In this document: positions 37,901-59,765 of the stretch, piece after piece
Numbering within the stretch: the first letter of the stretch is position 1
Layout: every line of letters starts with the position of its first letter
NCBI GenBank assembly: GCA_964020085.1
Contig: OZ026607.1
Location: 6,870,779-6,934,778 of the forward strand
Direction: 5' to 3'
Origin: Micromussa lordhowensis
Taxonomy: Eukaryota > Cnidaria > Anthozoa > Scleractinia > Lobophylliidae
Length of the DNA: 64,000 bases
Made by a program: the position numbers and the translations under genes
Notes under the pieces: generated by a model
Seen by the model: the letters and a program-made list of their open reading frames with translations, nothing else
The model's database searches: none
Told to the model about the DNA's origin: nothing

Positions 37901-37942
37901 TATGATTTTAAAATTGATTTTATTTACAATATTTACATATGA

Positions 37943-38476: not shown

Positions 38477-38507
38477 AAAAGTAATAAAAAACATTTTTTT
38501 AGTCTAT

Positions 38508-42320: not shown

Positions 42321-42365
42321 CTTCTCCTTCTTTTTTTAAATGTGATTTTTTTGAAGATTGTCGAC

Positions 42366-42504: not shown

Positions 42505-42539
42505 TATGTAAGTAGTTGACTTCACCGCTTTAATTGAAG

Positions 42540-43082: not shown

Positions 43083-43125
43083 GATCAGCGACACTCTTTA
43101 CAAAAAAGTGTAAATGGTTTTTTCA

Positions 43126-44498: not shown

Positions 44499-44581
44499 GT
44501 AATAAGAAATAAAAATAAAAAAATCATTCGTTTTATAGCATTCAGTGAAGTCAATCAAATGTGATTGACAGTTCGTTTACA

Positions 44582-44590
44582 TATAAAAAA
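44582..44590 (+). promoter_or_regulatory. TATA box for the integrase operon-like block
   Basis: TATAAAAAA lies between divergent genes; a TGTGATTGACAG phrase just upstream resembles AGTGATTGACAG at 58496. Confidence 0.45.
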
Positions 44591-44632
44591 ATGGTATGGT
44601 ATGTTGTTATTCAATTCATGTTTGCTGTTATT

Positions 44633-46068: not shown

Positions 46069-47183
46069 CTTTTACTATAACATTACCAAGTGACGCAAGT
46101 ACCAGTATCTTTCCAGATAATAAAACCAATAACTACAAAGTCAAACTGGTCAATGAAATTCGATTAACAGAAGATGATTGGGAAGTGGCACTTCAAACGA
46201 TTTCATTTCCAGACACAGAATCAGTGCTTAAAAGTTCCCTGCTTGGAAAGTATCCGTTTGTACAAAAGGTAGTTACACACTTTTCTGGTACATTCGGCGA
46301 AAACGCTGATGGTTCACCTAATCTTGAAGATCCAATTGGTTTGGCTAATAATGCATTTTATGTACGTGAGTCTATTTTGGATCTAGCAGACAACCCAGTC
46401 AGAGATGGATTGTCATTTTGGAAAAAGATAATTCAAAGGACCAACTATGAATTCAATAACGGTCTACAACCTGACGAATTATTTACCAATGTCACTGGGG
46501 ATACAGGAATGCCTACTTACAAATGGGTGGAACGTGGAAATCAATTTGATTTGATGATAGACAATGACTCACTTCATTTATTAAATGAAGGTTCTTACAC
46601 AGACATTAGTCTACCCTTAGCAGAGGCTTTTGGATTAGTCAAAGAAGCTCGTGATTTTCGTGGAAATAGTTTCTGGATTCTCGGTGAATCCATTGAACTA
46701 ATACATACTACTAAGCGAGGACGTAAAGTACCGGATCCTGCAGCATATGGTGTGGTAGACGTCCCTGGAAATCGTCGTGGAAGGTTTTGGAAAGTGATGA
46801 CAGACGTTGCGACGGTTATGGGTAGACAAGATTATCTAAGACTTTATGGATTTTGTAATTGGTACATCACAGACATCAATTCCAATTTCGAGAGAATCTT
46901 TGGAAATGAAACTCGAACATTGTTCATTTACACCGACGTCGCTCAACCACAGATCGTGGGTGGAAAGCAAACAGACATGATCAGAGAAGTCGTGTACACT
47001 AACAAGTTTAAAGGGCGTAGTCAATTTGAACCGTTACATTTACAGTTCATTCCCATCAGAAAGAACGTCTTTGACACCATTGAAGTAGCTGTTAGTGAAG
47101 CAGATGGACAATTAGCGGATATTAGAGGTGGTTCAACAATTTTGACATTACTATTCAAACGGAGAAGTGAAAAATTGCTATAA
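46065..47183 (+). CDS. Putative minor capsid (penton-like) protein
   Basis: 372 residues beginning MTFTITLPSDASTSIFPDN, followed by WEVALQTISFP. This N-terminus is a recurrent signature of a Polinton/adintovirus virion protein that I believe corresponds to the minor capsid or penton component, though a spike role is possible. The C-terminal IRGGSTILTLLFKR contains an IxGG-x sequence matching the adenain-type cleavage consensus. Placed directly after integrase with an ATGA overlap. Confidence 0.55.
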   Translation: MTFTITLPSDASTSIFPDNKTNNYKVKLVNEIRLTEDDWEVALQTISFPDTESVLKSSLLGKYPFVQKVVTHFSGTFGENADGSPNLEDPIGLANNAFYVRESILDLADNPVRDGLSFWKKIIQRTNYEFNNGLQPDELFTNVTGDTGMPTYKWVERGNQFDLMIDNDSLHLLNEGSYTDISLPLAEAFGLVKEARDFRGNSFWILGESIELIHTTKRGRKVPDPAAYGVVDVPGNRRGRFWKVMTDVATVMGRQDYLRLYGFCNWYITDINSNFERIFGNETRTLFIYTDVAQPQIVGGKQTDMIREVVYTNKFKGRSQFEPLHLQFIPIRKNVFDTIEVAVSEADGQLADIRGGSTILTLLFKRRSEKLL

Positions 47184-47220
47184 AAGAAGAAGATACAGGA
47201 TTACGATATTATTTGAAATC

Positions 47221-47799
47221 ATGGCCTTCATGTGTCGATTTTCAGACCATTCTTCCCATTTTTTCAAAGTACCGAGTACACGTCCATTCAGAAAAGGACC
47301 TTTTTTTCAAACCATTTTAGGATTAGATCGTTTACGTGTTAAGCGCATTGAAGGAGAACTCGCTCTTCCATTATACCACGGTCAAAAGCAGGATTGGATT
47401 CAACATTATTATGGACCCACACAAAATCAACGACTTTACTATGTGCAGAATGTACCAGAGACAATCCTGGAAGATGTGTTTCAGTTTTTACTGTTACTTC
47501 ATTGGATCTCATGCAGTGACATTCCAATACCATTTGTAGGCCAAAAAGCTGTTCGATTCGTTTCTTCGTTACAGAAACGATTGTTAGAAATCAAAGAAGT
47601 CATGGGGTCCTTTGATACATCACTTCAACAACGAGACTACCTGATGAATCAATGGCACATGTTCAGAGATGTAGGGCAAGCATTAATCTTGAACGGAAAA
47701 CAACTAAAAGATGTTATGAAGGCATTTGAAAAAAGAGATGAATTCTTTTATATTTACATTTCATACATTGTAAGTTTATTCTTGGAAAAGTTAAAATAA
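47221..47799 (+). CDS. Polinton protein of unknown function, 192 aa
   Basis: Starts at ATG (MAFMCRFSDHSSHFF); the frame is open upstream into the preceding gene but lacks an ATG there. Features are IQHYYGPTQNQRLYYVQNV, a hydrophobic FQFLLLLHWISCSDI helix, and a C-terminal hydrophobic segment YIYISYIVSLFLEKL that could sit in a membrane. No family recognised. Confidence 0.55.
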   Translation: MAFMCRFSDHSSHFFKVPSTRPFRKGPFFQTILGLDRLRVKRIEGELALPLYHGQKQDWIQHYYGPTQNQRLYYVQNVPETILEDVFQFLLLLHWISCSDIPIPFVGQKAVRFVSSLQKRLLEIKEVMGSFDTSLQQRDYLMNQWHMFRDVGQALILNGKQLKDVMKAFEKRDEFFYIYISYIVSLFLEKLK

Positions 47800-47831
47800 A
47801 AAAGAAACGTTTCATGTTATTGTGGTATGAG

Positions 47832-47839
47832 TATATAAG
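47832..47839 (+). promoter_or_regulatory. TATA box before the basic virion-protein genes
   Basis: TATATAAG 55 bases before the ATG at 47894; the following leader is A/T-rich. Confidence 0.5.
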
Positions 47840-47893
47840 GCGATTAATAAAGTCACTTCTCATTATTTTTTTGTAAACGTAAAAAAGAGAATC

Positions 47894-48166
47894 ATGAGAG
47901 GTGGTGCATTGCGACTGTATAAACCAAATGGTGGTCAAAGAGGGCGAGGACTTGGTGGTGTCCTTCGAAAAGCAGGGACGAATTATCTAAAAAATTTAAT
48001 AGTAACTAAATTGAAAAGAACTGCCAAAAGAAAAGGTCGACAACTCTTGTCTTCTGCTGGACGGAAAGTATCCAGATTATTGACTGGTCAATCGGGTGGA
48101 GCATTTTACAATAAAAGGCGAAGACGACGTCCACGTAGACGAAGAGTTGATATATTTCAGTACTGA
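47894..48166 (+). CDS. Small Arg/Lys-rich core-like protein
   Basis: 90 residues, strongly basic (LKRTAKRKGRQLL, KRRRRRPRRRRVD). It begins MRGGALRL and has GQSGGAF: both xxGG-x sites resemble adenovirus-protease cleavage sites, as in adenovirus core proteins. A DNA-condensing or minor virion role is inferred. Its stop and the next start overlap (TGATG). Confidence 0.65.
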   Translation: MRGGALRLYKPNGGQRGRGLGGVLRKAGTNYLKNLIVTKLKRTAKRKGRQLLSSAGRKVSRLLTGQSGGAFYNKRRRRRPRRRRVDIFQY

Positions 48167-48510
48167 TGGATTACCAGTTGAGAAGTCAAGGTATTGTACC
48201 TACAGTGAGTTTCAGAAATCCATACCGTAATGTAGGATTAGCTGTGAGAAGAACCGCTATGACAAGGCGTAAACAGAAAGGAGGTCAATTTACTTTGTTT
48301 TCACCAAGTTTAGTGGCTGCTTCCAAAAAATTAATACGTCAACGAAAACAAAGACGAAGAAAAAGAAGACAAAAAGGAGGTAACGTTTTCCTGGGTGCTG
48401 CAAAGATGGGGTATAAATTGGGTAAACAAAAAGATTATAAACGGATGGGATTAACTGGTGCAGCGCAAAGTAGCTATCGACGAATTCCAGAGCCGTGGTT
48501 ATATCAATAG
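48166..48510 (+). CDS. Small basic virion-like protein with GG sites
   Basis: 114 residues. Basic clusters (RRTAMTRRKQ, QRKQRRRKRRQ) are each followed by a GG site (KQKGGQF and RQKGGNVF), suggesting processing by the element's protease. Probably a core or internal capsid protein. It directly precedes the major capsid gene. Confidence 0.65.
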   Translation: MDYQLRSQGIVPTVSFRNPYRNVGLAVRRTAMTRRKQKGGQFTLFSPSLVAASKKLIRQRKQRRRKRRQKGGNVFLGAAKMGYKLGKQKDYKRMGLTGAAQSSYRRIPEPWLYQ

Positions 48511-48511
48511 C

Positions 48512-48519
48512 TATAAAAA
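48512..48519 (+). promoter_or_regulatory. TATA box for the major capsid gene
   Basis: TATAAAAA 44 bases before the capsid ATG. Confidence 0.5.
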
Positions 48520-48562
48520 GGAAAAAAAGAGACTTTTGGAACATTCATTTTTTATTGACGAG

Positions 48563-49984
48563 ATGGCACAACCCATTCCAGCCCACGAGGCATCCGGTCA
48601 AACCGAAAATGCCGTTTTGGACCTTTTTACGGTTCCTGCAACGGATACATCCATTCACAGTTACAGGATGGTGACCATTGATCCTACAAGCCGTAGCATT
48701 AATCCAGTGGAATTCAATATTCCTGGAGGTCGTGATTACATAGATCTTTCACGAAGCTATTTTAAAATGGAATTTAAATTGACCAAATCTGATGGGAACA
48801 ATATTGTGGATGCAACAAACACGTGGCTAGCATCTAATGCGTTTCATACAATCATCAAACAACCTTCAGTTTATCTCAATGGCACCTTGATCACAGAGCA
48901 GACCGACACGTATGCGTACAAGGCATACTTGGAGACCATCCTAAATTATGACAAAGAAGCCGCTGAAACCTACTTGGAACCGCAAGGATTCTACTCAGCC
49001 ATGGATCACACACCGGAAATAACCGCAACCAATATTGACACTGCAGCCAATGCAGGAGCTGGTCATGGTGACTATGTAGCATTGAGTTCTGAAGCCAAAA
49101 AAGCGTTCACCAATGCTTGGAGGTTGAAAAATAGAATTAAAGATGGAAAAACCCTTCAATTGCTTGGGAAGCCACATATTGACATTTTCCAAGTGCGGCG
49201 TTTATTGGTGCCTTCAGTGGATCTCAAGATGCGGTTCACATTGAATGAACCGTCCTTCTTCTGCAACGGTATTACAGATACCGCTCAATTAACCCAGGCG
49301 AATTTCAAAATGGAGTTCATCGCTTGCCTAGTAAGAGTCAGATCTGACAAGTTCAATGACATCTCAGAAATGAGATTGAGGCAAATGAAATCTGTGTATT
49401 ACCCAACAGTGCGATCAGAAATCAGATCATTCACCATCCCAGCCAATACCCGTACTTGGGAAGAAACAGACATCTTCAATGGACGTATTCCAGATCGTAC
49501 CATAGTAGGATTAGTGCACCAAAATGCATACAATGGTGGTTACAAATGGAATCCATTCTCATTCCAAAAGTTTGGAGTTAAAAATATTAAACAAATCATT
49601 GAAGGGGAAGAATATCCCGATGAAGCCCTAGAAATGAATCATGACAATGGTCAACTAGACATGGAAGGCTATTACCGCCTGATTACAGCTGGTTGTCTGA
49701 ATGAAAATGGAAGAAGTATGTTAGCCTACAAGCATTGGGGACAAAACAAAAACACTACATTGTTCATGTGGAATAATGTGGCTTCAGGCTGTCAAGAAAG
49801 TGATGACCTTAACCCACGACAACAAGGACGGTTAAAGATCTACTTGCAACTGGGGGATAATGTCAATCATGGCATCACTGTCATTATTTATGGTGAATTT
49901 GAAAACATGTTGGAAATAAAACCCACCGGCAGTGTGCAATACGACATTTACAGGCAACAGATGATAGTGGGTAGAGTGGATTGA
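48563..49984 (+). CDS. mcp: Major capsid protein (double jelly-roll)
   Basis: I start at the ATG MAQPIPAHEASGQ (473 residues); upstream in-frame sequence lies in the preceding gene and promoter. Recognisable Polinton capsid features are PVEFNIPGGRDYIDLSRSYF near residue 50, the SVYLNGTLITEQ loop, FLVPSVDLKMRF-like second-barrel strands (LLVPSVDLKMRFTLNEPSF), IPDRTIVGLVHQNAYNGGY, and the C-terminal strand HGITVIIYGEFENMLEI. Such proteins form trimeric pseudo-hexameric capsomers of icosahedral particles. In many animal genomes this protein is annotated as F54H12.2-like. Confidence 0.93.
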   Translation: MAQPIPAHEASGQTENAVLDLFTVPATDTSIHSYRMVTIDPTSRSINPVEFNIPGGRDYIDLSRSYFKMEFKLTKSDGNNIVDATNTWLASNAFHTIIKQPSVYLNGTLITEQTDTYAYKAYLETILNYDKEAAETYLEPQGFYSAMDHTPEITATNIDTAANAGAGHGDYVALSSEAKKAFTNAWRLKNRIKDGKTLQLLGKPHIDIFQVRRLLVPSVDLKMRFTLNEPSFFCNGITDTAQLTQANFKMEFIACLVRVRSDKFNDISEMRLRQMKSVYYPTVRSEIRSFTIPANTRTWEETDIFNGRIPDRTIVGLVHQNAYNGGYKWNPFSFQKFGVKNIKQIIEGEEYPDEALEMNHDNGQLDMEGYYRLITAGCLNENGRSMLAYKHWGQNKNTTLFMWNNVASGCQESDDLNPRQQGRLKIYLQLGDNVNHGITVIIYGEFENMLEIKPTGSVQYDIYRQQMIVGRVD

Positions 49985-49996
49985 AAAAACAAAGAC

Positions 49997-50542
49997 ATGG
50001 AATTCATACCATTTTCCACTACTCAATTGGAGTATCTTGCTAAGGACGATCCCATACTGAAACCGATTTTTAAAGGAGTCTTCGCCTCCGATCAATTACC
50101 TCAAAATCCAGAATTTATCAAACCTTGTGCCTACATTGTGAACACGGATCCCATTACGGAAGTTGGTAGTCACTGGTTTGGTATCTACACGAAACAAGGC
50201 AAATGTGAAGTGATGGACAGTTACGGAGTACCATTAAATTGGTACAGTCGATCCTTGGTCGTACCTTGGGTGATGGATAATTGGGAAAGCATATCAAGCA
50301 ACGCCAAGTCATTACAAGAACTAAATTCGAATTCATGCGGACAATACGCATTGATGTATCTCAAGTACCGATGTCGTGATAAAAGCATGGAAGATTTTAC
50401 TGGGCTGTTCAGCAACGATTATGTGGCAAACGATCATAAAGTGGGGAACATGATTAAAAAAGAAATTAAACAGAGTTTAAAAGATGTTGCTTATTTACCA
50501 TGTCAACAGTATAATTTTACCTGTTGTTATATTGATATATAA
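49997..50542 (+). CDS. pro: Adenain-like cysteine protease
   Basis: 181 residues, close to the adenovirus protease in length. The catalytic His is in VGSHWFGIY, the acidic residue in CEVMDSYGVPL, and the nucleophile in NSNSCGQYALMYL. The Gln and spacing fit the Ulp1/adenain clan. It likely matures virion proteins at GG motifs found in neighbouring gene products. The next gene, the packaging ATPase, begins about 40 bases downstream. Confidence 0.92.
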   Translation: MEFIPFSTTQLEYLAKDDPILKPIFKGVFASDQLPQNPEFIKPCAYIVNTDPITEVGSHWFGIYTKQGKCEVMDSYGVPLNWYSRSLVVPWVMDNWESISSNAKSLQELNSNSCGQYALMYLKYRCRDKSMEDFTGLFSNDYVANDHKVGNMIKKEIKQSLKDVAYLPCQQYNFTCCYIDI

Positions 50543-50580
50543 ACAAGCAAAATCATTAAAAAATTAATTTATTATACATC

Positions 50581-51228
50581 ATGAGTGTCTGTGAGTCTTT
50601 TATGTTCCGAAGCCCTTGCAGCATATTGGTGGTGGGACCATCCAGTAGTGGAAAAACCGTATTCGTGGAACGCTTGTTACGAGAAAGAAACAAATTCTTT
50701 CACGGGAACACCTCTAAAGTTTATTATTGTTACGGAGCCTGGCAAGATAAATTTCATGGAATGAAACAGCGAGGCATACGATTTCATAAAGGCATTCCGA
50801 CTGTCGAAGACATTCATAAATGGTTCAATGGGGGAGGAGTACTGATATTAGATGACTTGATGGATGAAGGTGGGAATGATAAGACTATCTTGGATCTATT
50901 TACGAAACATTCTCATCACAATAATGTAACAGTACTATATCTCTGTCAAGACATGTTCCCACCAGGAAAATATGCCAAAACCATCTCTAGAAATGCACAT
51001 TACATCGTGGCGTTTAAAAATCCAAGAGATCAATTGGGGGTAAAAAACATGGTGTTACAAGCTTATCCTAGTGATTGGGAAGATGTCTTAGGAGTATATA
51101 GGGACGCCACAAGTCGGCCTTATGGCTATCTCATATTCGACTTTCATCCTAATAGTGACGACGAGAAAAGACTGATAGCCAATATATTACAAGGAGAAGG
51201 CTTTACTACCACTTATACCTCATCATGA
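50581..51228 (+). CDS. atp: FtsK/HerA-type genome-packaging ATPase
   Basis: 215 residues. Walker A is VVGPSSSGKTVFVERLL, Walker B is GGVLILDDLMDE, and a sensor region LYLCQDMFPPGKYAKTISRN follows. It belongs to the A32-like packaging ATPases of Polintons, virophages and large DNA viruses, which drive DNA into capsids. The stop overlaps the next start (ATGA at 51225). Confidence 0.92.
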   Translation: MSVCESFMFRSPCSILVVGPSSSGKTVFVERLLRERNKFFHGNTSKVYYCYGAWQDKFHGMKQRGIRFHKGIPTVEDIHKWFNGGGVLILDDLMDEGGNDKTILDLFTKHSHHNNVTVLYLCQDMFPPGKYAKTISRNAHYIVAFKNPRDQLGVKNMVLQAYPSDWEDVLGVYRDATSRPYGYLIFDFHPNSDDEKRLIANILQGEGFTTTYTSS

Positions 51229-52058
51229 GTGCTAAAAGTAGTACCGACAATGAAATTCAACGCTACAATACGACGTTTTACAATCAAGCGCAAGCCCAAG
51301 GTTTTGATGTCGACAGCATACTGGATAGAGAATATCCATCTCCATTATCTCCAGTATCTCCTTCATATGGTCGCTATGACATTGATATAATATTTGAGCA
51401 AATGACACAATCTCCAAAAACATCAACACCAAAGAGCTCTACTCCAAAAACACCAACACCAAAGAGCTCTACTCCAAAAGCACCAACATCAGGATCATCA
51501 CCTGCGGGTGTGGGTTCACCTTCCCCCATTCCCCTATCTGCCTCATTTTATGGATCAGGACCTTCCCCTTCATTGCGTTCAACACCTCCAATTTCACCTT
51601 CAATATGGCAAAGACCGTTACGGCAAGTTAGAAAAAGAAGAGCGGTTCCAACATCACCTCCACCTATCACACCTCCTAGCACACCGCGTGGAAGACCCTC
51701 CAAAGCCTTGAGAAGAGGAGGGGGTAGACGAAGACGTGGTGGTCCCGGCCGCGGCCCACCTGGCGGCGGCGGCGGCGGCGGCAGTGGTGGCGGTGGCAGT
51801 GGTGGTGGTGGTGGTCCAGGTGGTAGTGGAGGTAGTAATGGATCAAGACGAAGTGACGATACACCCACAAGTAGTGTTAGACGTCGTTATCGTCAACAAG
51901 ATTTACTACGAGAATTACAAAGACTTCAACAGCAAAACATTCAAAAAATGCAAGGAAGGCAAATTTCAGGAGTTACACACACTAATACCATCACCACGAC
52001 CTACAAAGATGGTGGAAGACCTAGTGTAACACGTTCGAGTAATTCATTCTCACCATAG
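51225..52058 (+). CDS. Disordered Pro/Ser- and Gly-rich protein
   Basis: 277 residues in low-complexity blocks: (KSSTPKTPTP)-type repeats, a Ser-Pro region, basic RRGGGRRRRGGPGRG, a long Gly/Ser run, then a helical QQDLLRELQRLQQQNIQ. The C-terminus (GVTHTNTITTTYKDGG, PSVTRSSNS) is a motif I associate with other Polinton proteins at this locus. Role unknown; a virion-associated protein is a guess. Antisense ORFs here are shadows of the GC-rich repeats. Confidence 0.6.
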   Translation: MSAKSSTDNEIQRYNTTFYNQAQAQGFDVDSILDREYPSPLSPVSPSYGRYDIDIIFEQMTQSPKTSTPKSSTPKTPTPKSSTPKAPTSGSSPAGVGSPSPIPLSASFYGSGPSPSLRSTPPISPSIWQRPLRQVRKRRAVPTSPPPITPPSTPRGRPSKALRRGGGRRRRGGPGRGPPGGGGGGGSGGGGSGGGGGPGGSGGSNGSRRSDDTPTSSVRRRYRQQDLLRELQRLQQQNIQKMQGRQISGVTHTNTITTTYKDGGRPSVTRSSNSFSP

Positions 52059-52062
52059 ATAC

Positions 52063-52070
52063 TATAAAAA
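52063..52070 (+). promoter_or_regulatory. TATA box before the 52109 gene
   Basis: TATAAAAA 39 bases upstream of the ATG. A pyrimidine tract ending TTTTTTCAG directly precedes that ATG and could be a splice acceptor; a short upstream ORF begins at 52074. Confidence 0.4.
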
Positions 52071-52108
52071 CAACATGACTATCAAATTTTTTAAAATATT
52101 TTTTCAGC

Positions 52109-52423
52109 ATGGATAGAATCAAGAGACAAGTACCATTTTTACGTGCGATTGTATCTGCTAGTGAACGGAATAGAAGAAGAGATTTACTCAAACATGCAAA
52201 CAAAGATCAAATTAATGCCATCAGTGAAATCACACTCAATCTGCTACGAAACAACATTCCTGTGTCACCAATTACCATGGCCAAACTTCGTCCGTTTCGA
52301 AATACATTACGACGTGTTGGAAAACGAAGCGTATCCCTTAAAAAGCGACGACAAGCCCTTATAAATCAGAAAGGTGGACGCTTTTGGTCTGGTTTGGGTA
52401 CTATTGTAAAAAATTGTTGTTAA
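52109..52423 (+). CDS. Conserved small basic Polinton protein
   Basis: 104 residues. MDRIKRQVPFLRAIVSASE, then NAISEITLNLLRNNIPVSP, LRPFRNTLRRVGKRSVSLKK and a C-terminal NQKGGRFWSGLG. The general pattern (helix, LN-L-NIP, R/K-rich helix, QKGG near the end) is widespread in Polintons. The GG site again suggests protease processing. Function unknown; virion core or internal protein likely. Confidence 0.7.
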   Translation: MDRIKRQVPFLRAIVSASERNRRRDLLKHANKDQINAISEITLNLLRNNIPVSPITMAKLRPFRNTLRRVGKRSVSLKKRRQALINQKGGRFWSGLGTIVKNCC

Positions 52424-52430
52424 CAACAAG

Positions 52431-53069
52431 ATGTCAAAATACCGTAAAATGTACATGATCCCTGCGGAGGATCCCGAAATGGTGAGTTGGTTCAAAGGAA
52501 AATTAACTGAAGACCCTACCTTGGACACAGCTGCCAAACTATCGGCTAAAAAATTACGTATTTTGAAAAATCCAAGAATGTCAAGCGCTGAAAAACAAAG
52601 TTTGGTACAACAAATCAATCCGAAACTTCAAGCTTTGATCAAAAGAATGCGCCAATTACCACCAGGAATTAGCTCAGCAGTAGGAATGATGGAAGAAGAT
52701 GAAGATGAAGATCTCATCACACCAGTACAACAGAAATTATTACAACGTATTCTGAAAACAGTGACTCCAGCTAGAGCCACATCTGTGAAAACAGAACCCG
52801 TAACGCCAATGACAGAAACTCCAAAGAAAAAACCTCGAATAAGTCGCAAACAATTGGCATCAGAATTACCTTTCTTCGATGAGCCTATTATAGAACAACC
52901 CACTCTGGAAGAAACAATTAAAAAAACATTAAGGAAATCTCGAAAACGAGTTGGTCAAAAAAGGCGTGAGCCAGCACCTCTCCGAAGGCTTAAAAGGGCT
53001 GAAGGATGGGAATCTTGGGAGCCATTAGGAGGTGAGACAAGAAAACGATTATTTCCATCTTCTACGTGA
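52431..53069 (+). CDS. Polinton virion-associated-like protein, 212 aa
   Basis: Starts MSKYRKMYMIPAEDP. A helical N-terminal third is followed by an acidic patch (MMEEDEDEDLI), a Pro/Lys-rich linker and a basic C-terminus with LKRAEGWESWEPLGGETRKR, which holds another GG. Only 7 bases separate it from the 52109 gene. It belongs to a gene type commonly placed here in Polintons, with no known function. Confidence 0.6.
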   Translation: MSKYRKMYMIPAEDPEMVSWFKGKLTEDPTLDTAAKLSAKKLRILKNPRMSSAEKQSLVQQINPKLQALIKRMRQLPPGISSAVGMMEEDEDEDLITPVQQKLLQRILKTVTPARATSVKTEPVTPMTETPKKKPRISRKQLASELPFFDEPIIEQPTLEETIKKTLRKSRKRVGQKRREPAPLRRLKRAEGWESWEPLGGETRKRLFPSST

Positions 53070-53075
53070 ACAATT

Positions 53076-53441
53076 ATGGTTAGAGGAAGAAAACGAGCAC
53101 CACGACGAGTATACAAACAATGGGGAGGAAGAAAAAAAGGATTCGATATTCAAAAGATGATTGAAAAGACAGGAATTGAATTTCATTGGCCTGGATATCA
53201 ATACATGGGACCTGGTACCAAACTAAAAAAACGTCTAGCACGTGGAGATCCAGGCATCAACCGTCTCGACCGTATTGCCAAGCAACATGACATTGATTAT
53301 TCAAGAGCAAAATCTTTACAGGACAAATGGAAAGCAGACACAAAAATGATCAAAGCCATTGATCAATTACCAGGCAAAAAAAAAATAACAGAACGTGTTG
53401 TTAAAAATATCATGAAAGCTAAGAAACGATTAAAATTGTAA
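53076..53441 (+). CDS. Phospholipase A2-domain protein (parvovirus VP1-like)
   Basis: 121 residues. HWPGYQYMGPGTKLKKRLA carries the YxGPGxxL calcium-loop motif and RIAKQHDIDYSRAKS the catalytic HDxxY motif, as in the PLA2 domain of parvovirus VP1 and several Polinton/adintovirus proteins. The family breaches endosomal membranes during cell entry. The N-terminus is basic with a YKQWGGRKKG site. This strongly suggests virus-like particles able to enter cells. Confidence 0.85.
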   Translation: MVRGRKRAPRRVYKQWGGRKKGFDIQKMIEKTGIEFHWPGYQYMGPGTKLKKRLARGDPGINRLDRIAKQHDIDYSRAKSLQDKWKADTKMIKAIDQLPGKKKITERVVKNIMKAKKRLKL

Positions 53442-53564
53442 AATCAACATTTTTTTATTAAAACATTGTTGTACGTAAAAAATCAATTGTTGTACGTAAA
53501 AAACAATTGTTGTACAAGCATTGATCTACATTAAAAGCATTGCAAAAAAGTTCCTTACTGTCTT
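53442..53564. repeat. Short tandem repeats between convergent genes
   Basis: Three imperfect copies of CAATTGTTGTACGTAAAAAA (53464-53515) lie between the convergent PLA2 and RING genes. T-rich and A-rich flanks may supply polyadenylation signals for both strands. Confidence 0.6.
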
Positions 53565-54062
53565 TCATTCTTGATTAACATATCTTGAACGACACAAATC
53601 ACTCCATATATTCACATGATAGTGTGTAACTAAATAGTTCGTGATGGCACGCATGCGAGCCAAAGTCTGCTCCTTGTTACACCCCAGGAACATCACATCG
53701 GAGGTATTAGAGGTTACGTTCCACATTTCACCATAAAAATAGCCATCGTTACCTCTCCATAAAGGACGATCACCCCATGCAGCTTTAGCGGCTCTCATAA
53801 ACACGCGATCCTCGTAGAAAGGTTTGGACTCCATGGCGTTCTTGTAGTTGGAAACCATAATGTCAAAATTAACGCTGTTGATCCTGGTACGGCAGTAAGG
53901 GCATGTGATATCTGAGAAAGATTTGGTCTGCAGCTGTGTATGAAACCACCGATCAATACAATTGTAATGAATCGGTTGTTGACAACAGGCGCTACTTGCT
54001 TCTGTGGTTGGGTAGAAGCAGATGATGCAATCGTCTTCTCCACTCGACATTGCGACACTCAT
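53565..54062 (-). CDS. RING-type zinc-finger protein 1
   Basis: 165 residues. The RING is at the N-terminus: CIICFYPTTEASSACC, then IHYNCIDRWF and CPYCRTRI, giving the C-x2-C, C, H-x2-C, C-x2-C ligands. The C-terminal two-thirds (FMRAAKAAWGDRPLWRGNDG, LARMRAITNYLVTHYHVNIW) has no recognised domain. RING proteins are usually E3 ubiquitin ligases, so manipulation of host proteins is inferred. Divergent from the second RING gene across module-containing promoter 2. Confidence 0.8.
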   Translation of the reverse strand: MSVAMSSGEDDCIICFYPTTEASSACCQQPIHYNCIDRWFHTQLQTKSFSDITCPYCRTRINSVNFDIMVSNYKNAMESKPFYEDRVFMRAAKAAWGDRPLWRGNDGYFYGEMWNVTSNTSDVMFLGCNKEQTLARMRAITNYLVTHYHVNIWSDLCRSRYVNQE

Positions 54063-54174
54063 ACTAATAATGATAGTATTACTCAGTGATGTTCAATGAT
54101 GTTCAATGATGCTGAATGTCAAATGCTCAGTGATGTTCAATCCCCCAAAATCGCCTTAGCTTTATAGTAAATAA

Positions 54175-54297
54175 AAACGTCATGTGACACTATGACGTAG
54201 ACATCACGTGGTCATATTAGGGGGATGGGGGGGTATCCCCCCTTCTCAATATGAGATCACGTGATAGGTCACATGACCTTAATAAATCCTATATAAG
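54175..54297. promoter_or_regulatory. Divergent promoter region 2 (RING1 / RING2)
   Basis: Module M2 (54179-54210) is in the same orientation as at 42452. Module M1 (54220-54275) is inverted relative to 42390-42446, including the GGGGGGTATCCCCCC palindrome. TATATAAG at 54290-54297 lies 66 bases before the RING2 ATG. Shared modules imply co-regulation with polB. Confidence 0.65.
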
Positions 54298-54362
54298 AAG
54301 TAAACCACCTTTGGAGATCATTTTCACAATTGTACGAAAACTCATTACGCTGAAAAACAAGA

Positions 54363-54800
54363 ATGGCTGGCCGTCAGAGTAAAAGACTTCGTCTGGAAGC
54401 ACCTGAAATTCTACAAACCACTTTTCAATGTTTCATTTGTCATGGCACTTCATACACTTGCGATATGGGTACCATACAGCTAGCCTGCTGTAAAAACTTT
54501 GTGCATCAACGATGTCAAGCTCGATGGCAAGCTGAAGGAAGAAACTGTGGAATGTGTCGAGGATCCTTAACAACTGATGTGGTACTCAGCGCAGGTGAAT
54601 CCAATCCGATTCGATCAGAAGACATTGACATTCCTACGGATTCTCTAAACTTTGACGAGATCACCCATGAAGTCTTGTCCATGTCCCGCGAACAAGTGAT
54701 TGCCAGATTGAGGGAATTATTGCAATCTGAAGAGTTAGAAGAACAACTACAACGTGTAAGTATTTTCTTCTTCTTTATCCCTATAAAAAAGTGGATCTAG
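54363..54800 (+). CDS. RING-type protein 2: leader exon of an alternative-exon array
   Basis: The unspliced ORF is 145 codons. A consensus donor CGT|GTAAGT ends the likely exon at 54755 (phase 0), after 131 codons. RING ligands: CFICHGTSYTC, LACCKNFVHQRCQARW and CGMCRG. A C-terminal helical stretch (EVLSMSREQVIARLREL ... EELEEQLQR) leads into the splice site. The first acceptor is 82 bases downstream at 54837. Spliced, this RING-helix module would be joined in frame to one of 11 downstream cassettes. Unspliced, translation would add only 15 residues (VSIFFFF..). Confidence 0.75.
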   Translation: MAGRQSKRLRLEAPEILQTTFQCFICHGTSYTCDMGTIQLACCKNFVHQRCQARWQAEGRNCGMCRGSLTTDVVLSAGESNPIRSEDIDIPTDSLNFDEITHEVLSMSREQVIARLRELLQSEELEEQLQRVSIFFFFIPIKKWI

Positions 54801-54837
54801 ACCTTTTTTAAAAATATTTTTTTAAAATTTTTTTCAG

Positions 54838-55044
54838 ATGAGCACTATAGAATTATCTACAGTATTTGCATTCAGAAGATTTATAGAACAAGTGGGGACA
54901 CAATACATTTGGATGCAATACAGTGATACAACTATTAGCTTTCGATTAGCCAATAATTATGAAGACATTCTTAATTTCTCATCTAATGCTGTTATAAGAT
55001 TTAGTAGACATTTACTCCCTATTTTACTAGCTCTCTTTTACTAG
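54838..55044 (+). CDS. Alternative 3' cassette exon 1
   Basis: Open from acceptor TTTTTTTCAG (ends 54837) to TAG, 68 codons, phase 0 with the RING exon. MSTIELSTVFAFRRFIEQ, then TTISFRLANNYEDIL and a hydrophobic end. A TATAAAAAA at 54782 could also make this an independent transcript. Close paralogue of the next cassette. Confidence 0.6.
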   Translation: MSTIELSTVFAFRRFIEQVGTQYIWMQYSDTTISFRLANNYEDILNFSSNAVIRFSRHLLPILLALFY

Positions 55045-55062
55045 CTCTTAAATTTTTTTCAG

Positions 55063-55257
55063 ATGAACACTATAGAATTATTTACAGTGTTTGCATTCAG
55101 AAGAATTATAGAGCAAGTGAGGAATTACATACAGCAACAATACAGTGATGCAACTTTTAGCTTTCGATTAGCCGATGGTTATGAAGATATTTTTAATCAA
55201 TCTAATACTGTTCTAAGTATTCATTTACTCCCTCTTTTACTAGCTCTTATAAATTAA
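55063..55257 (+). CDS. Alternative 3' cassette exon 2
   Basis: Follows acceptor AATTTTTTTCAG, 64 codons, phase 0. MNTIELFTVFAFRRIIEQ, then ATFSFRLADGYEDIF. Clearly a tandem duplicate of cassette 1, which shows how the array grew. Confidence 0.6.
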   Translation: MNTIELFTVFAFRRIIEQVRNYIQQQYSDATFSFRLADGYEDIFNQSNTVLSIHLLPLLLALIN

Positions 55258-55267
55258 TTTTTTTCAG

Positions 55268-55585
55268 TTCAGTCATCGTCAAGCTAGGTTAGCTTGGATT
55301 TATGCATGGTGTATAGACCAACTAAATGAGCAAAGACCTGCACATCAAGTACACTTTATAATTGGAAATAACGATTTCCGTGATGTTGCAAATATGATCA
55401 GTGCAAGACTAACAGGAAGATCTCTCATTCGATATTTTAATACATCTGTTATTGATTTTGATCATTTTTGTATTAGTTATCATCAAATAATTTCAATAAC
55501 TTCCACTGTAGAAGAACTCGAAAGAACTATCAAAACTATTCATAGTAATGAAGTGTTTGCTGAACTCTTTTCTTTAGTTCGATGA
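55268..55585 (+). CDS. Alternative 3' cassette exon 3
   Basis: Open in phase 0 from acceptor TTTTTTTCAG (ends 55267), 105 codons, first internal ATG only at codon 43. Begins FSHRQARLAWIYAWCIDQLN, then HQVHFIIGNNDFRDV (strand-turn pattern shared by other cassettes). Its last codons overlap the next acceptor. Confidence 0.65.
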   Translation, partial: FSHRQARLAWIYAWCIDQLNEQRPAHQVHFIIGNNDFRDVANMISARLTGRSLIRYFNTSVIDFDHFCISYHQIISITSTVEELERTIKTIHSNEVFAELFSLVR

Positions 55586-55889
55586 TCAAGATCGAGCAGC
55601 TTTGTTACTCTATAAACGTGCATTAACAAGGATGGATCCTTTTAGACAAGAATATCGTGTGAATCCACAAATCATATTTGTTAATACCAGGACTTATGGA
55701 TCTCACATTTTCAATAACATGGTGCAACATCTAACAATACAACATCGTTACATTCCTGTCTCAGTTATTGAATTTGAACACCCCCCCACCTATTATAATA
55801 ATAATCAGATCATATTGTCATGGTATAAAGATTTCAGAGCATACTATAATAATCAAATAAGTAGATTCAGTACACCACTTTTTCTTTAA
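55578..55889 (+). CDS. Alternative 3' cassette exon 4
   Basis: The acceptor TTCTTTAG ends at 55577, and that TAG is itself an in-frame stop, so the frame opens exactly at the splice site. 103 codons. FDDQDRAALLLYKRALTR, then PQIIFVNTRTYGSHIF and YIPVSVIEFEH. Confidence 0.65.
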   Translation, partial: FDDQDRAALLLYKRALTRMDPFRQEYRVNPQIIFVNTRTYGSHIFNNMVQHLTIQHRYIPVSVIEFEHPPTYYNNNQIILSWYKDFRAYYNNQISRFSTPLFL

Positions 55890-55897
55890 TTTTTCAG

Positions 55898-56182
55898 TGC
55901 ACCCTGAGAGAACAAAGATGTCTATGCATTTACTATATTCATTTATGTAATTTACGCGTGAACAACTACCTTGTGCTCGTTATGGGAGAGCAGAATTTTA
56001 TCACGTTGATTGATCGAATTACCGATAAGGTTACTGTTACGGACGATATCTCAATTGACTTTCATCCTATACAATACTCAGGTGCTCCATATTTTATTTT
56101 TTTTCACAATCAAATGCGATTCGACACCTATGGGTTAATCATGGGTCACACGAGATCAGACTTTCATTACTCAACGCAATAG
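55898..56182 (+). CDS. Alternative 3' cassette exon 5
   Basis: After acceptor AATTTTTCAG, 94 codons, phase 0. CTLREQRCLCIYYIHLCN, then NNYLVLVMGEQNFITLI and YGLIMGHTRSDFHYS. The N-terminal helix aligns with cassettes 3 and 4. Confidence 0.65.
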   Translation, partial: CTLREQRCLCIYYIHLCNLRVNNYLVLVMGEQNFITLIDRITDKVTVTDDISIDFHPIQYSGAPYFIFFHNQMRFDTYGLIMGHTRSDFHYSTQ

Positions 56183-56213
56183 ACTTAAATCTTCCTATTC
56201 TTAATTTTTATAG

Positions 56214-56489
56214 TTCATTCAAGGTTCACCATGGAAATTATTACGTGTGATTCATAAATTGAGACACTACCCTTCTTGGGAAGAAGAGGAACAAGAAGAA
56301 GTTCATTTTAGGTCCTGGACTAGACCAATTTTAAGCTATGACATCTTTTGTAGAGATCAAACTGTCGATTTTTTCCCAATATTACAAAATCTGACCCGGA
56401 AATTCATTGACGATTTAACTTTCGAGTTTGAAGTTCATTATTATAATACTACCAATAATTTTAAAGCTTGGCTTTTTGTTAATTACTAA
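56214..56489 (+). CDS. Alternative 3' cassette exon 6 (no methionine)
   Basis: After acceptor TTTTTATAG (in-frame TAG). 91 codons with no ATG at all, so it cannot be translated as a separate gene from an AUG. FIQGSPWKLLRVIHKLRHYP, an acidic WEEEEQEEVHFRSW, then FEFEVHYYNTTNN. Confidence 0.7.
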   Translation, partial: FIQGSPWKLLRVIHKLRHYPSWEEEEQEEVHFRSWTRPILSYDIFCRDQTVDFFPILQNLTRKFIDDLTFEFEVHYYNTTNNFKAWLFVNY

Positions 56490-56509
56490 AGTTTTTTTAT
56501 TTTTTTTAG

Positions 56510-56890
56510 TTTCCTTTTCGATTCTACAATCCACAACAAGTGAAACAGATCATAAAAACAATAATAGCCTTTGAAACAGGACCTGATATGAATTTGCAAG
56601 ATCAAGCATTAGCAAGAAGAAGCCATCTTGTATTAGGACGGCGTAGATTTCATATTGTTCTACGCGGTGGCTCCAATAACATTTCTTATTGTAAAAACCA
56701 TATGAAAGATTTCATTCATTTTTTAAATCCTTTTCGTTTTTTTTTGTCATTGGAATATCACACAGGATATTTTGATGATGAATTTGTCTACGAATTTGCT
56801 CACTTTGAACTTTCCTCATTCAGTCACAAATACAATCTATTTAATCAAACTTTCAATCACTACAAAAGAAAATACACTTCATTTTCTTAA
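56510..56890 (+). CDS. Alternative 3' cassette exon 7
   Basis: After acceptor TTTTTTTAG (in-frame TAG), 126 codons. FPFRFYNPQQVKQIIKTI, then RRRFHIVLRGGSNNI and FRFFLSLEYHTGYF. Shares the xPFR(F/I) start with cassettes 9 and 11. Confidence 0.65.
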   Translation, partial: FPFRFYNPQQVKQIIKTIIAFETGPDMNLQDQALARRSHLVLGRRRFHIVLRGGSNNISYCKNHMKDFIHFLNPFRFFLSLEYHTGYFDDEFVYEFAHFELSSFSHKYNLFNQTFNHYKRKYTSFS

Positions 56891-56912
56891 AAAAATCATT
56901 TTATTTTTTCAG

Positions 56913-57248
56913 TTTGAATACACAGTACAAGTACAAGATCTAAGAAGAATGTTAACATTTATTCTAAATCATACCTTACATGATGAATACCTTGACTCCG
57001 ACAGAAATCGCATTGTGTTCTATCTTAATGGGCATGTATATAATCGATTTCAACGAGATATGACAATGCTTGCGCAATTTATTTTGCCTTTACATGTAGC
57101 ATTTTATCTAACCCGAATGGGAAGACTATGTTTCATTTTTTCACGAGCTGATGAAACTGCACCTGATTGGCTCCCAATCAATAAATATTGTTTAACAGCA
57201 TGTACTTACAATCACACTGATTTTCATGATCAAAGACATTTTCATTGA
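56913..57248 (+). CDS. Alternative 3' cassette exon 8
   Basis: After acceptor ATTTTTTCAG, 111 codons, phase 0. FEYTVQVQDLRRMLTFIL, RNRIVFYLNGHVYNRF, LPLHVAFYLTRMGRLCFIF. Same helix-strand-helix-strand pattern as its neighbours. Confidence 0.65.
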   Translation, partial: FEYTVQVQDLRRMLTFILNHTLHDEYLDSDRNRIVFYLNGHVYNRFQRDMTMLAQFILPLHVAFYLTRMGRLCFIFSRADETAPDWLPINKYCLTACTYNHTDFHDQRHFH

Positions 57249-57282
57249 ATATAAAAAAAGTTGATGCATGGTATTTTTTTAG

Positions 57283-57609
57283 CTCCCTTTCAGATTTCAT
57301 GGAGGAAACATTTTATTCACCAAGGGAAACCTACTACCTAAAATCATAAATGAAATCATGACTTGGGATCAATGGTCAGCCACTCTATCTAATAATTTAA
57401 TAGTTCGATTTTATTTTTTAATAGTAGGTCCAAGAAATGGACCTATAAATAACGACATGCATCAATTTTTTAATCTTTTAAGATTACCATTTCGTTATAA
57501 GATAAGAATCATTTGGAATCCTATTTCAATCTTAGGGGATGGTTGGATGGTATATAATGTAGAACGCATTTTGATAACATGTAACTCTCTCTCGTTATTT
57601 TTCAGTTAA
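57283..57609 (+). CDS. Alternative 3' cassette exon 9
   Basis: After acceptor ATTTTTTTAG (in-frame TAG), 108 codons. LPFRFHGGNILFTKGN, then LIVRFYFLIVGPRNGPI and LPFRYKIRIIWNP. Its end contains the acceptor of cassette 10, so the array is packed with no spare sequence. Confidence 0.65.
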   Translation, partial: LPFRFHGGNILFTKGNLLPKIINEIMTWDQWSATLSNNLIVRFYFLIVGPRNGPINNDMHQFFNLLRLPFRYKIRIIWNPISILGDGWMVYNVERILITCNSLSLFFS

Positions 57610-57707
57610 CCTTAGAAAGAAGATTACGATATGCTAGATTTAGACTTAACTTACGTCTAATACGTGACGGTTACGGACACTTTGTACGAATCAATAACCC
57701 CTTTTAA
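57606..57707 (+). CDS. Alternative 3' cassette exon 10 (short)
   Basis: After acceptor TTATTTTTCAG, only 33 codons: LTLERRLRYARFRLNLRL, then IRDGYGHFVRINNPF. Either a truncated cassette or the C-terminal part of cassette 9 reached by splicing. Least certain member. Confidence 0.4.
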   Translation, partial: LTLERRLRYARFRLNLRLIRDGYGHFVRINNPF

Positions 57708-57724
57708 AATACTATTTTTTATAG

Positions 57725-58039
57725 TTGCCTTTCAGAATTCATCATATTAAAAATTTACACAGATGTATTTGCCAAACACTTTTACGTGCCATTAATGATC
57801 CTAGAGATGTCACTTTACATATTTACATAAACATGTTAGGACCTAGAACTAGACAGTTTACTCAAGGTTCAATTTCAATGTCATTAGCAATGCACCATGT
57901 ACATTACCTTTTACAATGTATGTTTATGCCTTGTCGTTATTCTATTCATTTATGCTGTGTTCCTCGCGGTAATACACTTTTCATTGCGGATTATCAAGTG
58001 TTATTCTATTGTATTCAAAAAGTGGAGACGATACATTAA
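57725..58039 (+). CDS. Alternative 3' cassette exon 11
   Basis: After acceptor TTTTTTATAG (in-frame TAG), 104 codons. LPFRIHHIKNLHRCICQTLL, then VTLHIYINMLGPRTRQFTQ and MPCRYSIHLCCVPRG. Clearly related to cassettes 7-9 (xPFR start, hydrophobic strand followed by G-P-R). Confidence 0.65.
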   Translation: MPFRIHHIKNLHRCICQTLLRAINDPRDVTLHIYINMLGPRTRQFTQGSISMSLAMHHVHYLLQCMFMPCRYSIHLCCVPRGNTLFIADYQVLFYCIQKVETIH

Positions 58040-58046
58040 AAAATTG

Positions 58047-58054
58047 TATAAAAA
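58047..58054 (+). promoter_or_regulatory. TATA box for the 58092 gene
   Basis: TATAAAAA 38 bases before the ATG; marks the end of the cassette array and a new transcript. Confidence 0.5.
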
Positions 58055-58091
58055 CCATTTGTGTGTAGCGTCTTCAATTTATTTTTTCATC

Positions 58092-58331
58092 ATGGCACAA
58101 GCAGATGGAATGCTTACAGCGTTCAAACAATCCTATTCAGAAATTTTAACCCACATTGAAAGTATACAAATTCACTTGCAAGAAATGGAAGAAGAATTCC
58201 TTGAATTGGAATCCATCCTAGAGGAGGTAAATCAAAGAATCATTATGCAAAGAAAAAATGATCCTGGTGTTGGTAGTAGCAATGGTGAATGTCAATGGTC
58301 AGTACTATATAAAAATAGTAAACAAGCATGA
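58092..58331 (+). CDS. Small coiled-coil protein
   Basis: 79 residues starting MAQADGMLTAFKQSY. Residues about 15-58 form a heptad-like acidic helix (ILTHIESIQIHLQEMEEEFL, then ELESILEEVNQRI). No family recognised. A TATA box lies just upstream. Confidence 0.6.
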   Translation: MAQADGMLTAFKQSYSEILTHIESIQIHLQEMEEEFLELESILEEVNQRIIMQRKNDPGVGSSNGECQWSVLYKNSKQA

Positions 58332-58349
58332 CATGATCGCAACTTGAAA

Positions 58350-58514
58350 ATGGGGAAAGTAATGTCAATATTGCCACACATCCACGAACGACTTAAACCA
58401 AAAAAAGAAGAAGACAAAGAATGGTTATTCAAATCCAATCAAAAGAAAAAAACAAGTTGGTTAACTAAGGGATTGAAATGTCACAAAAATGAACGAGTGA
58501 TTGACAGTGATTGA
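58350..58514 (+). CDS. Predicted N-myristoylated small basic protein
   Basis: 54 codons, too short for most gene callers. MGKVMSILPHIHERLK has Gly2 and Ser6, matching the N-myristoyltransferase consensus, followed by a Lys-rich stretch (KPKKEEDKEW, NQKKKTSW). Myristate plus basic patch is typical of membrane-targeted viral proteins. Supported only by motif and position. Confidence 0.4.
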   Translation: MGKVMSILPHIHERLKPKKEEDKEWLFKSNQKKKTSWLTKGLKCHKNERVIDSD

Positions 58515-58526
58515 CACCGCATAAAC

Positions 58527-58533
58527 TATAAAA
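58527..58533 (+). promoter_or_regulatory. TATA box for the 58572 gene
   Basis: TATAAAA 39 bases upstream of the ATG, after the phrase AGTGATTGACAG. Confidence 0.5.
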
Positions 58534-58571
58534 TCAGGATACATTTTTTTCCTACACATTCATTGAGCATC

Positions 58572-58913
58572 ATGGATTCATGCAAGGTAACTGATTCATG
58601 CCAGAACAATTTGAAAGAAGACAAAGAAAGGGAAGAGAATGAAGAATCTATCTCTTTATCAGTATTGATTCAACTAGTAGTCAATACAATCCTTTCCGAA
58701 GAAAAATTGGACATTGATCTAAAAATGCTCAAGTACAGGAACAACTTATCTGACAAAATCTTATCCATGAGTGAGGAAGAGCATAAAAAGAAGCCAAATC
58801 TTAAAGGATTCTTTGAAAGTTTCAGAGCTGGATGGGATATCTGGAAAAAGGATGGTGAAGATAAAGAAGAAGCTTCCTTTAACGCCTTCCACACCAGCAT
58901 GTGTAAAGATTGA
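58572..58913 (+). CDS. Acidic helical protein of unknown function
   Basis: Starts MDSCKVTDSCQNNLKEDKE; 113 residues, helical, with LSVLIQLVVNTILSEEKLD and GFFESFRAGWDIWKKDG. Its 3' end overlaps the next ORF in another frame. Confidence 0.55.
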   Translation: MDSCKVTDSCQNNLKEDKEREENEESISLSVLIQLVVNTILSEEKLDIDLKMLKYRNNLSDKILSMSEEEHKKKPNLKGFFESFRAGWDIWKKDGEDKEEASFNAFHTSMCKD

Positions 58914-59166
58914 AACATTGAGAAAGTATGATCCCACAGACATGTGTGAACTTGATAAACATGTTTTGGATGGAATTATTCAAGAGTACTGGAATAGACC
59001 AGAAACAATGTCTTTTGATACATTCTTCTTTTCTGAATACTTTTTGGATGATTTTACCAAAAAAGAAATCATATACATGGATATCAATGGCGATATACCA
59101 TTTCAATTGATTTATTTTCCTCAAGATGATAAAGAGTTCGCAGCAGCTAGAAATGACGCTAAATAG
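58852..59166 (+). CDS. Overlapping small ORF, unknown function
   Basis: 104 residues from ATG 58852 (MVKIKKKLPLTPSTPACV), overlapping the preceding gene by 62 bases. It contains DGIIQEYWNRPETMSFDTFF and DINGDIPFQLIYFPQDD. The frame is open further upstream, so it could instead be the 3' half of a frameshifted or spliced version of the 58572 gene. Confidence 0.5.
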   Translation: MVKIKKKLPLTPSTPACVKIETLRKYDPTDMCELDKHVLDGIIQEYWNRPETMSFDTFFFSEYFLDDFTKKEIIYMDINGDIPFQLIYFPQDDKEFAAARNDAK

Positions 59167-59249
59167 TTCCACTTTATTTGTAAATGTGTTATTTACATTA
59201 AATATCTGTAAAAAACATATTGTGTTGTTTCATATTTTTTTAAAAAAAA

Positions 59250-59322
59250 TGCCACAGTGAGGATTCGAACCCCAACCTCAATGGCCACAACATTGCGTGC
59301 TAACCATTAACACTACTGTAGC
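59250..59322 (-). tRNA. tRNA-His (anticodon GTG)-like gene
   Basis: Read on the minus strand: acceptor GCTACAG/CTGTGGC (one T-G wobble), D arm GTGT..GCAC with TAATGGTTA loop, anticodon arm CAATG-TTGTGGC-CATTG giving GTG, T arm TGGGG-TTCGAAT-CCTCA, and discriminator A. A run of eight T follows at once (Pol III terminator). Position 14 is T instead of the usual A and the D loop has nine bases, so folding may be slightly atypical. It lies inside the Polinton, 264 bp from the right inverted repeat. Confidence 0.75.
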
Positions 59323-59324
59323 TT

Positions 59325-59375
59325 TTCAGTAAGCTCAATGGTCGAATAATCCACTTGACCATCAAGCTCACTGAA
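59325..59375. repeat. Hairpin beside the tRNA gene
   Basis: TTCAGTAAGCTCAATGGTC (59325-59343) pairs with GACCATCAAGCTCACTGAA (59357-59375) with two mismatches and a 13-base loop, directly 5' of the tRNA on its strand. Confidence 0.65.
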
Positions 59376-59585
59376 GGATTTGCTCAAACATTTAACATTA
59401 TGTATGGTAATATATGGTATGTACTAGTTACAAAAAGAAGTGAGGTCAAGTGTCAAGACAGATGCGTGTTACAATTGCTCCCGCGCCCAGGACGATAATT
59501 CTGTCTTTCCGGACCTCACACTTTAGCATCCATTTTTTTCATGTCTATATAGGATTCAACTGATATTTTTGCCTCCTTGTGGTAG

Positions 59586-59765
59586 TCCGTTTTGTTGTGC
59601 GCAGGCGCGACTCGGCCCCAGTAGCGCACTCGGTATTCAAGATGGCGCTGGAATGGAATGTGAGAATGGAATGTGCTAGCTGCATTCTGATTGGTCCATT
59701 TTGGTCACGTGGTATTAATCCTGCTCTCTGATTGGTTATGACCCAGAGGCGCGTACTGTACTACT
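59586..59765 (-). repeat. Polinton right terminal inverted repeat
   Basis: Inverted copy of 37717-37900, shorter by 4 bases. Protein-primed replication is expected to start at these ends. Confidence 0.95.

Follow-up and report, generated by a model that had tools for sequence, protein, structure and literature searches.

We describe a gene in a 64,000-nucleotide (nt) stretch of the genome of the scleractinian Micromussa lordhowensis (GenBank assembly GCA_964020085.1, contig OZ026607.1, positions 6,870,779 to 6,934,778 of the forward strand; hereafter the window, in whose coordinates features are given). The gene lies on the plus strand near the right end of a Polinton and very probably encodes an E3 ligase diversified by alternative 3' splice-site choice, in which one RING-containing head is joined to any of about eleven tails. 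One promoter would drive a pre-mRNA in which the RING exon ends at a single strong donor, and the spliceosome would pick among about 10-11 tandem 3' splice sites; each pick would attach another tail in frame to an unchanged head of RING and linker, the tail being mostly 64-126 amino acids (aa) long and ending in its own stop, and would leave the downstream cassettes as 3' untranslated region ahead of one shared poly(A) site. The predicted introns span 82 to 2969 nt and the predicted products 164 to 257 aa. The products would all be RING E3 ligases, each with a tail that selects or positions a different target: ubiquitin ligation by the head is likely, judging from the RING, as is target choice by the tails, judging from the RING and the variety of the tails. 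The anatomy and reading frame of the gene, protein-level constraint that includes ATG-less parts, conservation of donor and acceptors in copies, and one- and two-tail relatives are set out below; use of the sites in RNA we infer from the DNA.

The RING leader exon (54363..54755, plus strand) comprises 131 codons, ends in phase 0 and is followed directly by the donor GTAAGT (54756..54761, plus strand; CGT|GTAAGT at 54755/54756), also in phase 0 and invariant in copies. The motif occurs once against 1.2 occurrences expected by chance, i.e. is not rarer than expected, so its bare presence proves nothing; the evidence for the donor is its position and conservation. Eleven cassettes follow on the plus strand, each a phase-0 open reading frame (ORF): the paralogous cassettes 1 (54838..55044, 68 aa plus stop) and 2 (55063..55257, 64 aa plus stop), cassette 3 (55268..55585, 105 aa plus stop), cassette 4 (55578..55889, 103 aa plus stop), whose acceptor lies within the end of cassette 3, and cassettes 5 (55898..56182, 94 aa plus stop), 6 (56214..56489, 91 aa plus stop), 7 (56510..56890, 126 aa plus stop), 8 (56913..57248, 111 aa plus stop; the most variable, occurring as different haplotypes), 9 (57283..57609, 108 aa plus stop), 10 (57606..57707, 33 aa plus stop; the weakest member) and 11 (57725..58039, 104 aa plus stop). 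Together these ORFs cover ∼93% of the array; each starts at a T-rich YAG, and eight of the ten neighbouring pairs are 8-34 nt apart after the stop. A candidate shared poly(A) signal, ATTAAA (58035..58040, plus strand), overlaps the last stop, and other AATAAA or ATTAAA strings in the array occur only inside cassettes 8 and 11.

On recheck, the donor and all eleven acceptor coordinates of an initial annotation of this DNA proved correct, as did its statements that every cassette is open in phase 0 to its own stop and that the TAG of the acceptor is an in-frame stop in five cassettes (4, 6, 7, 9 and 11). Cassettes 6, 7, 9 and 11 are open from the acceptor onwards only, the cassette before having already stopped. 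Cassette 6 indeed has no ATG, to which we add that cassette 10 likewise has none; the first ATG stands right at the AG in cassettes 1 and 2, after 12 codons in cassette 8 and after 18-42 codons in the six others.

A RING-type zinc-binding domain is predicted in the leader exon by sequence profile: a profile of the array RING and four homologues matches solved RING E3s (RLIM, E 1.7e-4; RNF126, E 3e-4). Upstream of the gene lies a promoter-like block (54179..54311, plus strand) in common with the region upstream of the family B DNA polymerase gene (PolB; upstream region 42354-42483), the two regions sharing 91 nt in inverted orientation (84%) and 32 nt in direct orientation (97%), which suggests common control of the two genes; the block at the RING gene includes TATATAAG at 54290, 73 nt 5' of the RING ATG.

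Openness at acceptor-like sites favours phase 0 in the array, and control regions show next to no such bias. A phase-blind acceptor rule (at least eight T and at least nine pyrimidines in the 12 bases before AG) picks 13 sites in the array, 10 of them among the eleven acceptors listed above, and at least 60 codons are open in phase 0 at nine of the 13, in phase 1 at one and in phase 2 at one. Phase-0 frames of that length open at 0 of 2 such sites on the minus strand of the array, at 1 of 3 (plus) and 1 of 11 (minus) in the rest of the element, and at 0 of 21 (plus) and 1 of 15 (minus) in the flanks. None of 1,000,000 draws of random start points matched the observed mean openness. With a generic splice matrix the eleven acceptors rank from 1 to 39 among 172 AGs, and therefore acceptor strength alone would not single them out. 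Chance open frames were rejected as an explanation on the phase-0 openness at phase-blind sites together with the intactness and constraint of the cassettes in copies.

In a genome search the RING exon gave 13 copies, 97-100% identical at the DNA level, and we could locate 138 of the 143 copy-by-cassette combinations (the missing five are in L016 and L019, where the stretches examined are taken up by insertions and finish early). The acceptor AG is kept in all 138, the ORF is intact within 2 aa in 131, and the donor GTAAGT shows no variation among copies. Segregating sites in the cassettes comprise 83 nonsynonymous (N) and 60 synonymous (S) changes in the predicted frame (omega ∼0.43, p 1e-6), with omega ∼1.12 and ∼0.99 in the +1 and +2 frames; counting the RING exon as well gives omega-like values of 0.35 in group A (the eight copies close to the window copy), 0.36 in group B (the other five) and 0.47 for fixed differences. 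Neutral decay of the cassettes across copies, which the initial annotation had named as an outcome that would speak against its proposal, is thus not seen.

Among the alternatives to an array spliced throughout, the one that survives best, itself improbable, is that one or a few acceptors alone are productive, and that the others are remnants of a once larger set or give products only rarely. The shortness of cassette 10 would fit this, as would the uneven constraint, with cassette 8 close to relaxed (N19/S8, the most variable), and the insertions of about 0.35 to 1.6 kb in three copies (L016, L017 and L019); against it, the number of copies, out of 13, with an ORF intact within 2 aa is 11 to 13 for every cassette (misses including the unlocated combinations), and no AG has been lost. 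In L012, L013 and L014 cassette 8 differs from the window copy at 17-18 of 336 sites, with 0-5 differences in other parts, and this divergent haplotype within near-identical copies probably reflects patch exchange between elements. In L017, L018 and L021, all of group B, an extra T-rich YAG, a short stretch and a second YAG stand just 5' of cassette 2, resembling a duplicated acceptor.

A slightly smaller chance attaches to the possibility that each cassette is a small gene in its own right, with a promoter and a start (AUG or non-AUG) to itself, and that the AGs are incidental. It could draw on the ATGs right at the AG of cassettes 1 and 2 and on TATA-like strings within the array (e.g. at 55248 and 57250). 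These strings keep no regular place ahead of the cassettes; of 19 genes of the element that were scanned, in contrast, 10 carry such a string 44-73 nt upstream of the start taken for the scan. Two cassettes lack ATG and in seven others it comes late, and in five the frame opens exactly at the acceptor. The codons before the first ATG are moreover still constrained: the 309 of them show N23/S15 (omega ∼0.49, p 0.025), against an omega of 0.41 after the ATG. Translation from the first ATG would let the earlier codons drift, so their constraint disfavours ATG starts. Trans-splicing of a spliced leader is likewise disfavoured, since it calls for a start codon in each ORF, which cassettes 6 and 10 lack and seven others have only late, and since ATG-less codons are constrained.

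The design of one head with alternative tails has simpler counterparts in the same genome. Looking for the layout in other Polintons, as the initial annotation had proposed, turned up one-tail and two-tail versions. Behind the RING of loci L035-L038 (34-39% identical) lies a single C-terminal domain, with no second tail module detected. Head and tail form one open frame in L035; L036 is broken within the tail, a stop interrupts the RING of L037, and L038 has a stop in the linker, which bears a GTAAGT that L035 does not have. No donor pattern was found in L035-L037. Polinton-type ATPase and protease genes lie near L035 and L036.

Two-tail loci, such as L039 (RING 36% identical) and L041 (33%), combine a RING with a first tail that shares the frame of the head, unbroken in L039 and interrupted by a single in-frame TGA in L041, and with a homologous second tail. 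That of L041 gives 133 genome matches at E ≤ 0.01, first tails and fragments included. In L039, L041 (= L047), L048-L058 and L063, AG|GTACG splits a linker glycine codon in phase 1, while 2 nt separate the T-rich YAG ahead of the second tail from the first codon, which makes the phases match (e.g. in L049 and L052, donor AG|GTACGC and acceptor TTTTTTCTGTAG), and the first Met of the second tail comes at residue 88-134 of its open frame. At the corresponding place L042 has AG|GTACT and L040 AG|GTACA, phase 1 by hand; L059 has AG|GTATG and L062 AG|GTACT, both phase 1 by hand count in open frames. A phase-matched acceptor is present in L059 and L060; in L060 the head was not found and no frame could be assigned to the single AG|GTA, and in L062 no acceptor before the second module passed the filter. 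L061 shows a head and one tail, with ∼310 nt covered beyond it; a second tail may lie further on. For the 90 aligned residues at the start of the second tail, a stretch before any Met in L047 (L063 has a Met near residue 86), the ratio of nonsynonymous to synonymous substitution rates (dN/dS) lies between 0.27 and 0.47 when L047 or L063 is one of the pair, the near-identical pair L047-L048 (0 against 1 change) excepted.

A phospholipase-like gene 77-83% identical to one in the window (described below) lies beside L039, L041, L049, L052, L055, L058 and L063; L041 also has ATPase and protease neighbours, and L059 an integrase. Around L060 and L062 no Polinton-type neighbours were found within their 2.1 kb. 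The tested two-tail loci that have such neighbours are therefore Polintons or pieces of them. Separately, two-tail matches recur every ∼3.67 kb, in twelve units, at G000:C10:4628436-4669598, which looks like a tandem array derived from part of a Polinton.

A search with the RING protein retrieved four proteins at 97, 64, 48 and 46% identity, all of which continue with LQR or LQQ and then VS, as GTAAGT would encode, and are divergent afterwards. One of them (P0002, 64%) is open through the intron, reading VS...FFQ, right after which a homologue of cassettes 1/2 (34-37% identity) starts, as a TTTTTTCAG would encode; at the protein level, the only one at which they are seen, the donor and first acceptor look conserved in another element. 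Cassette 7 gave one protein match, 97% identical, while cassettes 9 and 2 matched, in the genome, solely the 13 known copies (cassette 2 also their 13 cassette-1 paralogues). Viral contigs scanned with the integrase, PolB, the RING, the RING alignment and the two-tail alignment yielded no confirmed relative. For the head plus first tail of the two-tail loci the protein collection contains 50 homologues (41-96% identity), and among the 20 examined in full and 29 aligned (some in both), with which the second tail was also compared, there was no clear fusion of head to second tail. P0035 aligns full-length with the second tail at 30% and is assignable to neither tail; P0041, the one with two tail matches, runs from first tail into second in one frame; and P0023, by eye, reads into the apparent start of a second tail.

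The arrangement seen in P0041, and the overlap of the first-tail ORF with the second frame in two-tail loci (from ∼2 nt in L055-L057 to 133 nt in L039), could be taken to favour ribosomal frameshifting or stop-codon readthrough in place of splicing, which is very improbable: cassettes 6, 7, 9 and 11 have no open overlap with the preceding cassette, which has already stopped, and therefore cannot be fed by a frameshift, most cassette neighbours are separated by the gaps given above, and the overlap in L055-L057 is just those ∼2 nt. Own genes, non-AUG starts and frameshifting each founder on one point: the constrained ATG-less codons, the frames that open only at an acceptor, or the gaps after stops. 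The proposal of the initial annotation that one RING exon is spliced to many C-terminal cassettes is strongly supported by frame-specific constraint, by a donor and apparently a first acceptor that distant homologues retain at the protein level, and by the two-tail loci, the splicing itself being a prediction.

How far the tails are related was a further claim of that annotation, which saw paralogues in cassettes 1/2, 3/4/5 and 7/8/9/11. Cassettes 1 and 2 are 68% identical; for the other two sets paralogy could not be shown by BLASTP or hhalign, a MAFFT alignment of eight cassettes has no invariant column, and against a profile of the two-tail module none of the 11 window cassettes beat all 60 of its shuffles. 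As to a common fold (helix, hydrophobic strand, turn), a model of cassette 9, of low confidence (predicted local distance difference test 43), suggests a helix-strand-helix-strand-strand order. The same order is predicted confidently in the related tail.

Several observations weigh against the splicing interpretation. Under a looser rule, taking any pyrimidine-rich AG, phase 0 is favoured less strongly (6 of 13). Most cassettes have no sequence relation to each other or to the two-tail module, and cassette 10, with only 33 aa, is of doubtful membership. As a single sequence the array RING matches Pfam zf-RING_2 at E 0.01, below the cut-off. The 13 copies are closely related, so that their counts are not independent events, and neither are those of the two-tail loci, L041 being the same place as L047 and L055-L057 having identical translations; all of the two-tail DNA comes from one host genome, and L059, L060 and L062 have an earlier Met in the open frame of the second tail (at 38, 6 and 47).

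We tentatively suggest a role for such an array: it may be a library of E3 target receptors, grown by tail duplication from one to two to many, with tails exchanged between elements, through which one promoter attacks many host or rival-virus proteins. For the exchange, cassette 8 is a suggestive pointer.

The element that hosts the array (37717..59765, 22,049 bp, no strand assigned) is a complete-looking Polinton, in which PolB, integrase, protease, ATPase, terminal inverted repeats, a 6-bp target-site duplication (CGCGTG on both sides) and AGT-repeat ends (AGTAGT...ACTACT) are all present. Its terminal inverted repeats (37717..37884, plus strand, and 59598..59765, minus strand) are identical over 168 bp, and a repeat finder gives 177 nt at 99%. 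PolB is encoded on the minus strand (38508-42320; PF03175, E 8e-47), and the other genes are an rve integrase (44986-46068; PF00665, E 2e-12; chromo, E 1e-4, below the chromo cut-off), a Ulp1/adenovirus-type cysteine protease (49997-50542; PF02902, E 5e-6, above the cut-off; PF00770 adenovirus endoprotease, E 0.009, below it) and an A32-like packaging ATPase (50581-51228; PF04665 Pox_A32, E 6e-6). A search for jelly-roll capsid genes with Pfam profiles only, in the proteins of 46065-47183 and 48458-49984, gave no match. A second RING gene (53565-54062, minus strand; Pfam zf-RING_2, E 9e-6, just under the cut-off) adjoins the array RING gene and is divergent from it. The stretch 53076-53441 (plus strand) encodes a phospholipase A2-like domain (PF08398, E 3e-12), of the kind known from parvovirus capsid proteins. 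At 20788-22667, a 126-bp repeat occurs 15 times within a long minus-strand ORF (20649-24938), which we take to be possibly a TPR-type host gene.

If it is true that a gene of about eleven tails is spliced here, such elements use host splicing to multiply their protein products, and the array would point to host factors attacked by ubiquitination. The one-, two- and eleven-tail series within one genome is a natural series for the origin of alternative terminal exons. ORF callers will go wrong on such elements, as an early start codon is missing from many tails. In the open-licence literature, covered mostly through listings, we found no description of such a Polinton array.

Joining one exon to alternative 3' splice sites is familiar from small DNA viruses (polyomavirus T antigens, papillomavirus E6/E7 and E1^E4, adenovirus E1A/E4), which resemble the array in their shared exon and compact genome and differ in making few products, against ∼11 here. 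The likening of the array to adenovirus leader splicing in the initial annotation holds loosely, since the array leader is coding whereas the adenovirus major late leaders are non-coding. The two-tail RING loci are also close, with a RING head, a linker donor and a T-rich acceptor before a tail without early Met; they differ in having the first tail in the frame of the head, a phase-1 donor (AG|GTA) and two homologous tails. As a Polinton/Maverick the element is typical in its PolB, rve integrase with chromo, Ulp1/adenovirus-type protease, A32-like ATPase, terminal inverted repeats, 6-bp duplication and AGTAGT ends. Vertebrate Mavericks are described as having 6-bp duplications and AGT-repeat ends, and intact ones are reported to be without introns, in agreement with Kapitonov and Jurka 2006 (PMC8097293); the present element differs, one of its genes being apparently built on splicing. 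In Drosophila lola a common N-terminal domain is reported to be spliced to at least 20 unique C-terminal exons (PMC1947980). A common N-terminal exon and many in-frame alternative C-terminal exons are the likeness, here known from DNA. The differences are that lola is a host BTB-zinc-finger transcription factor, cis- and trans-spliced, whereas here the head is a viral-type RING, and the array is ∼3.7 kb long, with one apparent poly(A) site and cassettes almost abutting. Like lola, mod(mdg4) has a common N-terminal domain with alternative C-terminal exons. What we describe would thus be a known splicing logic in a type of element not expected to have it, with an unusually long series of tails and with simpler relatives.

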